A stretch of DNA of 23,639 bases from a virus. The stretch covers positions 1 through 23,639 of the IMG/VR virus record IMGVR_UViG_3300044522_000134; one strand, written 5' to 3'. This document shows, one piece after another, positions 6,087 to 19,732 of the stretch. Position numbers and translations under genes: made by a program. The first letter of the stretch is position 1; every line of letters begins with the position of its first letter. A model generated the notes under the pieces. That model did not search any database and was not told the DNA's origin. It worked only from the letters and a program-made list of their open reading frames with translations.

Positions 6087-7493
6087 ATGGCCATGACTAA
6101 ACCAACCTCTGAACAGGTTACATTTCTACAGACTGGCACAGGCGCAACGGCGCGTACGGTGGATGCCAAACTGAAAGACACTGTCAGCGTTAAGGACTTT
6201 GGTGCTGTGGGGGATGGAGTGGCTGACGATACGGCTGCGATTCAGGCAGCGATTACTTACGCCGCAAGCACAATTAACGGAGCGGCTGGAATGGAAGTAT
6301 TTCTGCCGACAGGTACATATTTAATTTCTAGCAGAATTGCTCTTCCAAACCGTGTAGGTCTTCGCGGTGCAAATGGTCGCGGAACGGTCATTAAGCCACA
6401 CTCATCGTTTGCAGATTCATATATGTTTCACGCATCCAATGGAGTTATATCCATGTTTGGATCGTATCTAGCAGATATGTACATTGACGCTCGCGGCAAG
6501 AATATGACCGCAGTTGTTTGGTCACAGGCATGGCAAGAAACTTGTGGCATGTACAAAGTTTCTATGCAATTTGATGGAACAACAAACTACGGAGTGTACT
6601 TAACTGATGGGTATGGCGGTTCGTCTTTCTGTCATTTTGATCAATGCGAAATCTTTTCAGACAGCACATTTGCAACTGCTGCTGGAATTTTAGTTGATCA
6701 AATTTCTGTCGTTGGTGGATTTATGTTTAATCTGACCAATACAAGCATTACTGGATCTGTAACAAATACATTGCCGTCTGGCATTCGGATGGTTAACGAC
6801 AGTTTGATATTGAACACATATCACTGCGAATATGTCACCAACATGGTTTCAATGTCAGGTGTTGGTGGATTGCAGGCCAACACAATTACTGGTTCCTTTA
6901 ATTTAGTAACCAATGTAATTAAATTAGAAACAGGCTTTACGGGGCGGCTGTCTCTGAACAACATTATTCCAAACGGAGCAACCAATGTTGTGAATGATGC
7001 TGCAACTTCTAGAAGCATTGTTGCAGCAGAAACAGGAATTGTTTCTAATTATAATTATCCAGAAATTGCATTTTCTTCGGTAGTGTCAGCGCAAATTCCA
7101 AATGTAACTGGAAACGCAACCGAATATGTTATTGTGTTTGGTACAGAAATATATGATTACCAATCAAATTACAACAATGCTACTGGTGTGTTTACCGCAC
7201 CAAGAACTGGAAAATATTTAATATGCGCTTCTGTAAAAATTGCTGTAGCAGCAGGAGTTACAACATATGTTGCAAAGATTTTAACATCAAATCGTGAATA
7301 TTATTTTTATCGTGGTGATACAGACAATGTTTATGATGGATCTGGGACATTTACTTGCGCTGGATCTTTTGTTTGTGATATGGATTTTGCAGATACAGCA
7401 AGAGTAACAATTGTTGTTAGTGGACTTGGTGCTAATACAGTTGATGTAGAAGCAAACGAAACCTATTTTCAAGCGCACTATTTAATGCGATAA
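6087..7493 (+). CDS. Second tailspike-like protein: beta-helix plus C1q-like tip
   Basis: This 468-aa protein starts at ATG behind AAGGAAACCACAAAC. It has no T7-like docking domain: only about 30 residues precede the same pectate-lyase_3 opening motif as the previous gene (SVKDFGAVGDGVADDTAAIQ). The middle is beta-rich and Asn/Gly/Thr-rich, as in a parallel beta-helix. The last 140 residues resemble a C1q/TNF-like jelly roll (YNNATGVFTAPRTGKYLI, ending ETYFQAHYLMR), a trimeric tip known on phage fibres. The linker before the helix is similar to that of the neighbour (VTFLQTGTGATARTVDAKL versus VTYTPAETGAVARSAQAKM). A protein without its own adaptor may be mounted on the first spike as a branch; that is inference. 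AT-rich after about 6260. Confidence 0.82.
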   Translation: MAMTKPTSEQVTFLQTGTGATARTVDAKLKDTVSVKDFGAVGDGVADDTAAIQAAITYAASTINGAAGMEVFLPTGTYLISSRIALPNRVGLRGANGRGTVIKPHSSFADSYMFHASNGVISMFGSYLADMYIDARGKNMTAVVWSQAWQETCGMYKVSMQFDGTTNYGVYLTDGYGGSSFCHFDQCEIFSDSTFATAAGILVDQISVVGGFMFNLTNTSITGSVTNTLPSGIRMVNDSLILNTYHCEYVTNMVSMSGVGGLQANTITGSFNLVTNVIKLETGFTGRLSLNNIIPNGATNVVNDAATSRSIVAAETGIVSNYNYPEIAFSSVVSAQIPNVTGNATEYVIVFGTEIYDYQSNYNNATGVFTAPRTGKYLICASVKIAVAAGVTTYVAKILTSNREYYFYRGDTDNVYDGSGTFTCAGSFVCDMDFADTARVTIVVSGLGANTVDVEANETYFQAHYLMR

Positions 7494-17188: not shown

Positions 17189-18621
17189 ATTACATATCTG
17201 TTTGTAGCGGAATTGAAGCAGCGAGCGTTGCGTGGCATCCACTAGGTTGGAACTGCCTTGGAGTATCAGAAATAGAACCGTTTCCCAGCGCAGTGCTGGC
17301 TCATCACTACCCTTGTGTTCCCAACTTTGGGGACATGACCAAATTCAAAGAATGGAATATCAATGGAACAGTCGATCTTCTCGTGGGGGGAACCCCTTGT
17401 CAATCATTCAGCGTTGCAGGACTCCGTCAAGGACTTAAAGATCCAAGAGGAAACCTCATGCTTACCTATCTTGCAATCGCTGAACATCTACGGCCTAGAT
17501 ACATTGTCTGGGAAAATGTTTTTGGGGTTTTGTCATCTAACGGAGGAAAAGATTTTGGTTCCTTCCTTGGGGGCTTGGGGGAACTGGGGTATGGGTGGGC
17601 TTACAGAGTCTTGGACGCTCAATGGTGCAGAACACACAGGCATCCAAGAGCCGTGCCGCAGCGTCGAAGGCGTGTCTTCGTTGTCGGATGTCTTGGAAAC
17701 CCAACAAGTGCCGCAAAGGTTTTATTTGAGTCAGAAAGCATGCAGCGGTATTCTGCGCCGCGCCGAACGACGAGGCAAGGAACTGCCGTTAATGTTGAGG
17801 AAAGCGTTGGAAGCGGTGGCGATAAAAGATGGCCAGCCCAAGTAGCCAGCACATTGAACGCGTCATTTGGAGACAAGCAGGGACTTGAAGATCAGCATGC
17901 GTTAAATGGTGCGCCGTGCTTTGTGGCGGATATTCCAAAGTTTGTTGAACCTATTTATTGTGGCAGCAATCCAAATATTTGCGACACAGTAACAAGCAAG
18001 TGGCAAAAACAAAGTGGCGGGCCCGCGGGAAGCGAGTGTGGATTATTTGTGTTGCAGCCTGTTGCAATTCAAGCAACCGTAATTGGTCGGAAAGATCACA
18101 ATGGGCCAAGTGGATCAGGCTGTTCTGACAACGGTGAGATGTTTACTCTTAATAGCACGGATGTTCATGCTGTGGCAATGGTCAATATGCAGGGAAGCAA
18201 GTCAAACGCTTGCGTAACAGAAGACGGCTCGTCATACACAATCAACGCAATGCACGGACATGATGTTCACGCTGTGGCAGTTGCGCCACAAGAAATTACG
18301 GCATTCCAATCTTCGGAATTACGCTTGCGCGGAACGCTGACAAATCAAATTGTTGCGCCAACGCTCAAATCGGAAACTAAATCAGGCGATACTGAACTTA
18401 GGGTTTTAGGCACAACCATGCAGGTGCGCCGCTTGACTCCAACAGAATGCGAACGGTTGCAAGGCTTTCCCGATGGTTGGACTGCAATACCTTGGAAGAA
18501 GAAGTCAGCGGATCAATGTCCCGATGGGCCTCGATACAAGGCGCTAGGCAACTCGATGGCAGTTAACTGCATGGAATGGCTAGGCGAGCGAATACAAGCC
18601 GTGGAAAGTGGGACGCTATGA
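17185..18621 (+). CDS. C5-cytosine DNA methyltransferase
   Basis: This 478-aa enzyme methylates cytosine at C5. Motifs run in canonical order: I (ISVCSGIEAAS, residues 4-14), IV with catalytic Cys72 in GGTPCQSFSVAG, VI (ENV, 110-112), VIII (PQRRRRVFVVG, 158-168), IX (RRLTPTECERLQGFP, from 415) and X (YKALGNSMAVN, 451-461). The variable region between VIII and IX (about 190-405) is the target recognition domain; it contains a repeated element around DVHAVA (STDVHAVAM and GHDVHAVAV). It starts at GTG 17185 in a GTGA overlap. No restriction partner is present, so it probably protects phage DNA from host restriction; specificity is unknown. The region around motif VII uses a run of GGG codons. 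Confidence 0.95.
   Translation: MNYISVCSGIEAASVAWHPLGWNCLGVSEIEPFPSAVLAHHYPCVPNFGDMTKFKEWNINGTVDLLVGGTPCQSFSVAGLRQGLKDPRGNLMLTYLAIAEHLRPRYIVWENVFGVLSSNGGKDFGSFLGGLGELGYGWAYRVLDAQWCRTHRHPRAVPQRRRRVFVVGCLGNPTSAAKVLFESESMQRYSAPRRTTRQGTAVNVEESVGSGGDKRWPAQVASTLNASFGDKQGLEDQHALNGAPCFVADIPKFVEPIYCGSNPNICDTVTSKWQKQSGGPAGSECGLFVLQPVAIQATVIGRKDHNGPSGSGCSDNGEMFTLNSTDVHAVAMVNMQGSKSNACVTEDGSSYTINAMHGHDVHAVAVAPQEITAFQSSELRLRGTLTNQIVAPTLKSETKSGDTELRVLGTTMQVRRLTPTECERLQGFPDGWTAIPWKKKSADQCPDGPRYKALGNSMAVNCMEWLGERIQAVESGTL
17569..17599 (+). other. Canonical G-quadruplex motif inside the methyltransferase gene
   Basis: Five G-runs of 5, 5, 4, 3 and 3 (17569-17573, 17577-17581, 17586-17589, 17593-17595, 17597-17599) are separated by loops of 3, 4, 3 and 1 bases on the coding strand. 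It encodes LGGLGELGYGW; most of these glycines use GGG. Confidence 0.6.
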
Positions 18622-18797
18622 CATTGCCACACGAAGAGGTCAACGCACTCAAGATGACACGCGAATTCTTGTACAAGTTGCTAATTGTTAAGGGAACGCC
18701 TAAGTGGATTAAAGACGAGGCGCGGTGCTGTTTGCGGCATTATCCGATTGTTATTGACGATACTTATTGCAGTGGGAAGGCAAGCAAGTTAGACTAG
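18618..18797 (+). CDS. Small basic protein of unknown function (59 aa)
   Basis: ATG 18618 overlaps the methyltransferase stop as ATGA. The protein begins MTLPHEEVNALKMTREFLYK, is Lys/Arg-rich and has two CC/C positions (RCCLRHYP, DTYCSGK). No family recognised. Its stop is followed by a 110-base structured gap, the only sizeable gap in the second half of this operon. Confidence 0.62.
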   Translation: MTLPHEEVNALKMTREFLYKLLIVKGTPKWIKDEARCCLRHYPIVIDDTYCSGKASKLD

Positions 18798-18907
18798 GGG
18801 CATGTTCAAGGCCTCTTTCAAATTCAATGCGTTTAATCCTTCAGGTTGGTGCTTGGCCTTGAACATCCTGCATCAGCCTGTTGGACTAAACGCATTTAGG
18901 AAACAAT
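18794..18907 (+). promoter_or_regulatory. Structured leader (hairpin with pseudoknot potential) before the replication gene
   Basis: A hairpin has arms 18826-18852 and 18870-18896: 24 of 27 positions pair, including two G-T. Its 17-base loop (18853-18869) contains GGCCTTGAACAT (18855-18866), the perfect 12-base complement of ATGTTCAAGGCC (18802-18813), upstream of the hairpin. The order A-B-A'-B' is that of an H-type pseudoknot or of two competing folds. The 3' arm ends next to the Shine-Dalgarno (TAGGAAACAATATG) of the replication gene, so translation control is a natural guess. The octamer CTAGGGGC (18794-18801) precedes the structure. No T-run, so not a simple terminator. Confidence 0.65.
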
Positions 18908-18960
18908 ATGAAAGAATCAAATACATCACCGTGGATGGCGTTCTGGGGCGAAGACTTTAA
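18802..18960 (+). CDS. Possible 52-aa ORF across the structured leader
   Basis: An open frame (MFKASFKFNAFNPSGWCLAL to GVLGRRL) spans the whole structure and overlaps the next gene by 53 bases in another frame. The only ribosome-site-like bases (AGGGG) are one base from the ATG, too close for normal initiation. The frame may be open by chance, or may be a leader peptide whose translation melts the hairpin. Confidence 0.2.
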   Translation: MFKASFKFNAFNPSGWCLALNILHQPVGLNAFRKQYERIKYITVDGVLGRRL

Positions 18961-19732
18961 TAGATCAACCATTGGTTGGTCACTAGAGGAGCGTGGCGCG
19001 TACCACTTTCTGCTGTGGCATTCATGGTCGTGCGATGGATTGCCACCTGAACTGGACAGGATCTTTAGACTTGACCCAGACCTGAAGCGATTGTGGCCGT
19101 GCCTTGAATCCAAGTTTCCAATAGCCAAAGATGGTCGCCGCAGGAACCCACGCCAGGAGCGCGGTCGCATGGAAATGATCAACATCTCGTCAGGAAAGAG
19201 CAAGGCTGGCAAGTTGGGAGCGTCAAAAAGATGGCAACAAGATAATGGCATATGCCATGCGTCTGCCATACCCTCTGCCATCAGTTTGCCAATGGCAGAA
19301 CCTATGCGGTCGCAATGGCAAACCGATGGCTATTCACCTTCACCTTCACCTCTACCTTCACTTTCACTTTCATCTCCAATTCCAAGTGCTATAAAACATA
19401 CGCTCAACGGCGTTGCCGTCGAGCCTGAGTTTGAGAAGAAAAAGTTAGCCAAATCAATCCCAGCATCCGAAATTGAGCGAGTGTGGGAATGCTTCCCACG
19501 CAAGGTCGGCAAGTTGAAGTCGCTGGCTCTGATTCGCAAAGCATGTGATCTTGTCGCTGTCGAACACGACCTGCTCGACGCTGGTGACGCGGTTGAGTAC
19601 ATGATCGAGAAAGTGAATCTGTTTGCGGACGATTGTCGAAAGAAAGCAACTGAGCCACAGTACATTGCACACCCACAAACTTGGCTTAACGGCGGACGAT
19701 ACTTAGATCCTGTGGTCACAGAATCGCATTAG
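18908..19732 (+). CDS. DUF1376-type replication protein (replisome organizer-like)
   Basis: This 274-aa protein starts at ATG behind TAGGAAACAAT. Residues about 5-105 match DUF1376 (PWMAFWGEDF, SLEERGAYHFLLWHSWSCDG, LPPEL, ending KAGKLGASKRW), found in phage replication proteins. A low-complexity Ser/Pro linker follows (about 143-160). The C-terminal part (VWECFPRKVGKLKSLALIRK ... YIAHPQTWLNGGRYLD) is the type of ending seen in phage replication initiators that load host helicase. No polymerase or helicase gene is seen in the window, so it likely recruits host machinery to an origin. The mid-gene repeats described separately may be that origin. Last gene of its operon. Confidence 0.8.
   Translation: MKESNTSPWMAFWGEDFNRSTIGWSLEERGAYHFLLWHSWSCDGLPPELDRIFRLDPDLKRLWPCLESKFPIAKDGRRRNPRQERGRMEMINISSGKSKAGKLGASKRWQQDNGICHASAIPSAISLPMAEPMRSQWQTDGYSPSPSPLPSLSLSSPIPSAIKHTLNGVAVEPEFEKKKLAKSIPASEIERVWECFPRKVGKLKSLALIRKACDLVAVEHDLLDAGDAVEYMIEKVNLFADDCRKKATEPQYIAHPQTWLNGGRYLDPVVTESH
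19231..19385 (+). repeat. ATGGCA/TGCCAT cluster and G-free tract; candidate internal replication origin
   Basis: ATGGCA or its complement occurs at 19231, 19245, 19253, 19264, 19276, 19292 and 19315, with near copies at 19287 and 19326. TGCCA starts at 19253, 19264, 19276 and 19287 are 11-12 bases apart, about one helical turn. Two are palindromes: ATGGCATATGCCAT (19245-19258) and TGCCAATGGCA (19287-19297). The next 56 bases (19330-19385) have no G on this strand and contain CACCTT/CACTTT repeats. Iterons beside a strand-asymmetric tract inside an initiator gene is how lambda ori is built. Confidence 0.45.

Follow-up and report, generated by a model that had tools for sequence, protein, structure and literature searches.

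A conserved two-hairpin leader with competing predicted folds in front of the replication initiator gene of a podovirus-like phage

Little is known about how freshwater phages time the expression of their replication initiators. We asked what the strongly folded leader in front of an initiator gene (rep) might do in a podovirus-like phage fragment of 23,639 nucleotides (IMG/VR virus record IMGVR_UViG_3300044522_000134; this whole stretch is referred to as the window). The host is likely to be a freshwater betaproteobacterium, because the head-tail connector encoded in the window resembles those of Limnohabitans phage DC33 (78% identity) and Bordetella phage BPP-1 (64%). The DC33 record (PQ492659.1) assigns this phage to the Inoviridae, yet it is 39 kb long and carries a head-tail connector gene; its taxonomy line looks wrong. 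The DC33 region with a possible rep gene showed no similar leader on reading.

Hairpins of the leader and their complementary loops

The leader is placed between a 59-aa gene and rep, and consists of the following parts.

18618-18797, + strand: conserved 59-aa upstream gene; its stop codon TAG (18795-18797) lies inside P1
18787-18824, + strand: hairpin P1; core stem 18796-18801 with 18811-18816, weak outer pairs out to 18787/18824
18802-18810, + strand: P1 loop, AUGUUCAAG; all nine nucleotides complement 18858-18866 of the P2 loop (predicted kissing pair)
18802-18813, + strand: segment A, the perfect 12-nt complement of A'
18826-18852, + strand: 5' arm of hairpin P2 (sequence and folding)
18853-18869, + strand: P2 loop, 17 nt (sequence and folding)
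18855-18866, + strand: segment A' inside the P2 loop (sequence and folding)
18870-18896, + strand: 3' arm of P2, ending directly 5' of the Shine-Dalgarno sequence
18897-18901, + strand: Shine-Dalgarno TAGGA of rep, 6 nt 5' of the ATG (read directly)
18908-19732, + strand: rep, a lambda-O-like modular replication initiator (primosomal/replication-initiation PHROGs); ATG at 18908 by direct reading

An earlier sequence-only reading had described a hairpin with 27-base arms, 24 pairs and a 17-base loop, a perfect 12-base complement of this loop just 5' of the hairpin, and a 3' arm adjoining the rep Shine-Dalgarno. The hairpin (P2) was confirmed base by base, with 24 of the 27 arm positions pairing (22 Watson-Crick and two G-U pairs). 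The complement was found at 18802-18813 against 18855-18866 (the former, segment A, is the upstream partner of that reading), and the 3' arm ends at 18896, immediately before TAGGA.

The same reading held that neither fold was expected by chance. Taken singly, each turned out to be less exceptional than this: a hairpin with 27-base arms and 23 or more pairs, counting G-U, was present in 65 of 200 shuffled windows and is thus not rare at this window size (at least 22 Watson-Crick pairs, 1 of 200), and a perfect 12-bp inverted repeat within 60 bases appeared in 18 of 200 shuffles (9%). What stood was the rarity of the nested combination; even a relaxed version of the design (17 of 20 pairs plus a nearby 9-nt loop complement) was obtained in only 3 of 300 shuffled windows. 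The predicted fold of the 131-nt leader has a z-score of -4.3, none of 200 shuffles being equally stable, and that of the minus-strand RNA is almost as strong (z = -3.4). A second long hairpin (6764-6872; 23 of 27 pairs, loop of ∼50 nt) lies in a pectate-lyase-like gene and is within chance expectation.

A 12-bp pseudoknot had been put forward as the main second fold. Geometry argues against it, since the 12-nt and 3-nt connectors are too short to span the helices, and the full pseudoknot together with an intact 27-base stem is ruled out; a partial one keeping just the lower 10 bp of P2 is possible. A 9-bp loop-loop kiss between P1 and P2, combined with a helix at the start codon (described below), is more plausible. 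The segment that partners the P2 loop from upstream forms, in turn, the predicted loop of a smaller hairpin (P1), which had been overlooked. P1 alone is predicted at -8.7 kcal/mol, with a pair probability of 0.84 in the stretch 18780-18915 and of 0.15-0.43 in stretches reaching 18960-19020. The kissing duplex (18802-18810/18858-18866) is predicted at -9.6 kcal/mol. A loop-loop complement of at least 7 nt was not obtained in any of 1000 dinucleotide shuffles of the leader (maximum 6), and a complement of 9 was confined to this leader when both strands were scanned in 1,176 windows of 131 nt. By geometric estimate, P1 and the kissing helix together match P2 roughly in length, and the two loops could kiss side by side; a 12-nt linker is unable to span the 27-base stem in a complete H-type pseudoknot, a steric problem that the kiss with P1 would remove.

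A promoter or terminator reading of the leader was dropped, as neither kind of site was seen in 18300-19200 (promoters on both strands, by consensus scan only).

Competing predicted folds at the rep start codon

We observed a further complementarity, also missed earlier, between 18814-18824 and 18905-18915 around the rep start codon. It gives rise to a predicted helix with the following components.

18814-18825, + strand: linker and 3' half of P1, the alternative partner of the rep start (sequence and folding)
18814-18820 with 18909-18915, and 18823-18825 with 18900-18902, + strand: helix C, start-closing (predicted fold)
18909-18915, + strand: UG of the rep start codon and the following bases, closed by helix C

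Helix C uses the 3' half of P1, and the two are therefore mutually exclusive. Their predicted energies are nearly equal, -54.4 kcal/mol for 18780-18966 with P1 forced against -54.5 kcal/mol for the closed fold of 18780-18960, both values excluding the kissing pairs, which the energy model does not cover. With P1 forced, the mean unpaired probability of the AUG was 0.55, as against 0.35 when bases up to 18811 were occupied, a mimic of a ribosome at the upstream stop codon; helix C reached a probability of 0.98 under this occupation. Accessibility of the Shine-Dalgarno was almost unaltered between the folds (0.69-0.72). The predicted shift in start accessibility is modest. In prefix folding, A:A' was held in the minimum free energy structure of transcripts ending at 18866-18875, and P2 appeared from 18880. 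The suggestion of the sequence-only reading that its two folds could not both be complete is supported.

From these complementarities and predicted energies we infer the following course of folding in the RNA. During transcription A:A' would form first and be displaced on emergence of the 3' arm of P2. P2 (18826-18896) would then be present in every final state, ending at the rep Shine-Dalgarno. In an open state, P1 (18787-18824) would form and its 9-nt loop would kiss the P2 loop, leaving the rep start region available. In a closed state, 18814-18825 would instead pair with the Shine-Dalgarno edge and the start codon (18900-18915), stacked on P2. We give a probability of roughly 0.55 to the leader being a cis-acting two-state RNA that controls translation of the lambda-O-like initiator; the fold z-score, the loop-loop complement, the invariant block described below and the predicted competition between P1 and helix C speak for it. 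The more general view of the sequence-only reading, a structured replication-gene leader with translation control among its possible roles, is supported, and a part in translation control is likely.

The upstream gene has its stop codon within P1, and the choice of state may hinge on whether a ribosome is present there. The leader might then stand for a new class of phage RNA switch, kissing hairpins against a start-codon helix, decided by the ribosome finishing the upstream gene; we put this forward tentatively, as a conjecture well short of the two-state reading itself. If true, such a switch would couple expression of the replication initiator to the flow along the early operon.

Conservation of the leader and its exchange among relatives

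Relatives were gathered via rep, the leader pattern, the 52-aa frame discussed below and the 59-aa gene. Five distinct contigs (the window, L003, L004, L006 and L007) carry the leader, as do the partial contig L005 and L002, which is identical to the window over the whole length compared; none of them differs at any base of 18783-18966. Their alignment has one long invariant block.

18783-18966, + strand: leader plus the first ∼20 rep codons; 0 variable positions of 184 in the five distinct contigs

The span given for the element by the sequence-only reading, 18794-18960, was therefore slightly too narrow. Outside the block, the aligned contigs have variable positions at 22 of 166 bases on the upstream side and at 30 of 211 on the downstream side. 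None of 20,000 random placements gave such an invariant gap, and the next-longest invariant run is 43, counted over the 4,548 positions at which four or more relatives align. Judged from these sequences, neutral drift does not explain the 184 invariant bases. The block ends near the limits of the predicted closed fold, extends 51 nt past helix C, and covers bases left unpaired in every fold. For the first 20 rep codons, outer pairs of the closed fold or the overlap with the 52-aa frame would account for only part of the conservation.

As no leader position varies, there is no base change to score for covariation. Diverged copies were not found in phages or plasmids by distant blastn, in other loci or 399 genomes (the family of one Burkholderiaceae MAG) by a covariance model (R1), or with patterns of the 52-aa peptide. 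The exact A/A' pattern matched, among viral contigs, only the five carriers and three unrelated sequences by chance. The stem-plus-loop pattern gave 10 new matches in viral contigs, all chance, and 50 in genomes, none similar beyond chance by blastn.

Other relatives carry the same 59-aa gene followed by an unrelated but conserved two-hairpin leader (type B), again just 5' of a Shine-Dalgarno and start codon. Type B and the leader of the window (type A) thus share the junction after the 59-aa gene, the two hairpins and the position, while their sequences are unrelated.

L010:2888-2970, L013:1164-1246, L039:2527-2609, L121:620-702 and others: type B leaders, no Rfam match; hairpin GAAACAGCCYAGG..CCTRRRCYGYTTC and a second GCGG/CCGC hairpin

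Of the 13 pairs of the first type B hairpin, 11-12 are present in each of the eight variants, and at one pair C-G, T-A and T-G replace each other. Type B precedes reps with other N-domains and also, by sequence reading, an HNH-like gene; in L121 it precedes a rep whose N-domain resembles that of the window. Since type B stands before such varied genes, the leader can be exchanged and is not strictly confined to a single initiator domain; this agrees better with a general expression element than with a site bound by this Rep. The 184 frozen bases, at a place where relatives swap structured leaders, point to a strong, exchangeable control element. Separately, L111 (1178-1605), L110 and L112 have, after a relative of the 59-aa gene (46% identity), a sequence like the 3' end of a tmRNA; in L111, a viral contig, ARAGORN calls a permuted tmRNA with the tag ANRMAMAA.

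The rep gene is itself modular (18908-19732; L003-L043): its N-domain is swapped among relatives, and the C-terminal domain is strongly conserved in most. The N part in the window is DUF1376-like, under the Pfam cut-off. Between the N- and C-terminal parts lies a cluster of iterons, an arrangement like that of lambda O, where the origin is likewise inside the initiator gene.

19231-19320, + strand: iteron cluster TGCCAT, seven sites in both orientations, inside rep (read directly)

This cluster is probably the origin. It is a better origin candidate than the leader, for which a role as a single-strand origin or primosome site had also been considered.

The foregoing observations bear on several other explanations of the leader. 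The molecule at work, RNA or DNA, is not fixed by the folding data, given that the minus strand folds too and DNA could form the same arms. The inverted repeats could accordingly be a protein-binding site, or extruded or single-strand DNA used in replication, packaging or recombination, with the RNA folds as a by-product. The identity of bases unpaired in every fold, the folding of both strands, and the location at a module border, 330 bp upstream of the iterons in a phage with a RecT gene, would all suit a DNA element. We nevertheless regard it as unlikely: the iterons inside rep already offer an origin, the block is missing from relatives that have the same C-terminal rep domain and bear other leaders, and its position is set exactly against the Shine-Dalgarno and the start codon.

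A somewhat smaller chance attaches to recent recombination, by which the block would have spread among mosaic phages and be identical without constraint. These contigs are indeed mosaic, individual pairs of them have identical stretches of 120-234 bp in common elsewhere, and the junction is a swap point. Against this, the leader lies in one run common to all five contigs with nearly the same ends, far longer than the 43 positions of the next.

The 52-aa frame offers another explanation, which we find doubtful.

18802-18960, + strand: 52-aa open frame, overlapping the rep start in a different frame; no family match

Its AUG is 4 nt past the stop codon (TAG) of the upstream gene and its own stop is 50 nt inside rep; it could be a leader peptide translated by reinitiation, with translation through the rep start controlling rep. 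The frame ends at 18960, close to the end of the block at 18966, and dual coding would explain the conservation of the first rep codons. However, the SD-like GGGG is just 1 nt from the AUG, the peptide has no family match, and the frame is lost where an alternative leader replaces type A. Moreover, in the flanking genes roughly one synonymous site in two is variable, which predicts an estimated ∼10 synonymous changes over the 21.7 synonymous sites of the non-overlapping part; none was seen. The frame cannot be the only cause of the conservation, which goes beyond its codon constraint as the sequence-only reading required. Finally, a trans-acting RNA (c4/CI-RNA-like), with P2 cut out of the transcript and its loop pairing to the AUG-bearing segment A of other transcripts, would make use of the perfect 12-nt complement to such a segment, but it is very improbable with segment A close by in the same transcript and no promoter- or terminator-like site in 18300-19200.

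Comparison with known regulatory leaders

The preferred reading, a two-state RNA controlling rep translation, was compared with known systems. Rfam gave no match for the leader at gathering or relaxed thresholds (sub-threshold matches had E values of 0.03-2.6, far under gathering scores), riboswitch aptamers included; the riboswitch-like sensor considered by the sequence-only reading gained no support. In plasmids of the IncL/M, IncB and IncI-alpha groups (repBA, repYZ), translation of rep depends on a pseudoknot, and the target region is bound by an antisense RNA. The IncL/M rep leader is structured, its distant parts pair, and it contains a short frame (PMC8125031). The phage leader is likewise a structured initiator leader with predicted distant pairing and a short frame. 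However, in the plasmid type the loop of an upstream hairpin pairs beside the rep Shine-Dalgarno, whereas here the perfect partner (18802-18813) is on the 5' side of the hairpin and 84 nt away from the Shine-Dalgarno; and the antisense RNA of the plasmids contrasts with the lack of promoter-like sites on either strand of 18300-19200 in our consensus scan.

Operators of the T4 gene 32 type are marked by a short H-type pseudoknot, with UUAAA repeats that run across the Shine-Dalgarno. The autogenous T4 gene 32 operator consists of a ∼28-nt pseudoknot followed by a less structured region of UUAAA repeats that is bound by gp32 (PMC535899). Both this operator and the phage leader are folded elements 5' of the Shine-Dalgarno of a phage replication gene, but in the latter strong hairpins, with 27-nt P2 arms, take up more than 100 nt, and UUAAA repeats were not seen. 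Judged by sequence, the leader is thus somewhat like the IncL/M rep leaders and the gene 32 operator, yet fails the defining features of both.

Intramolecular kissing loops between two hairpins of one RNA are found in the purine riboswitch. The complementary loops of the phage leader are similar, but it has no ligand core or Rfam match, and its stems are unequal (∼12 against 24 pairs). The lambda cIII leader has two nearly isoenergetic mRNA folds, one of which closes the start region; here the likeness is in predicted fold behaviour. We suggest that the leader is a new member, absent from Rfam, of the structured translational leaders, with a predicted role for which the competition between P1 and helix C supplies a clear two-state prediction.
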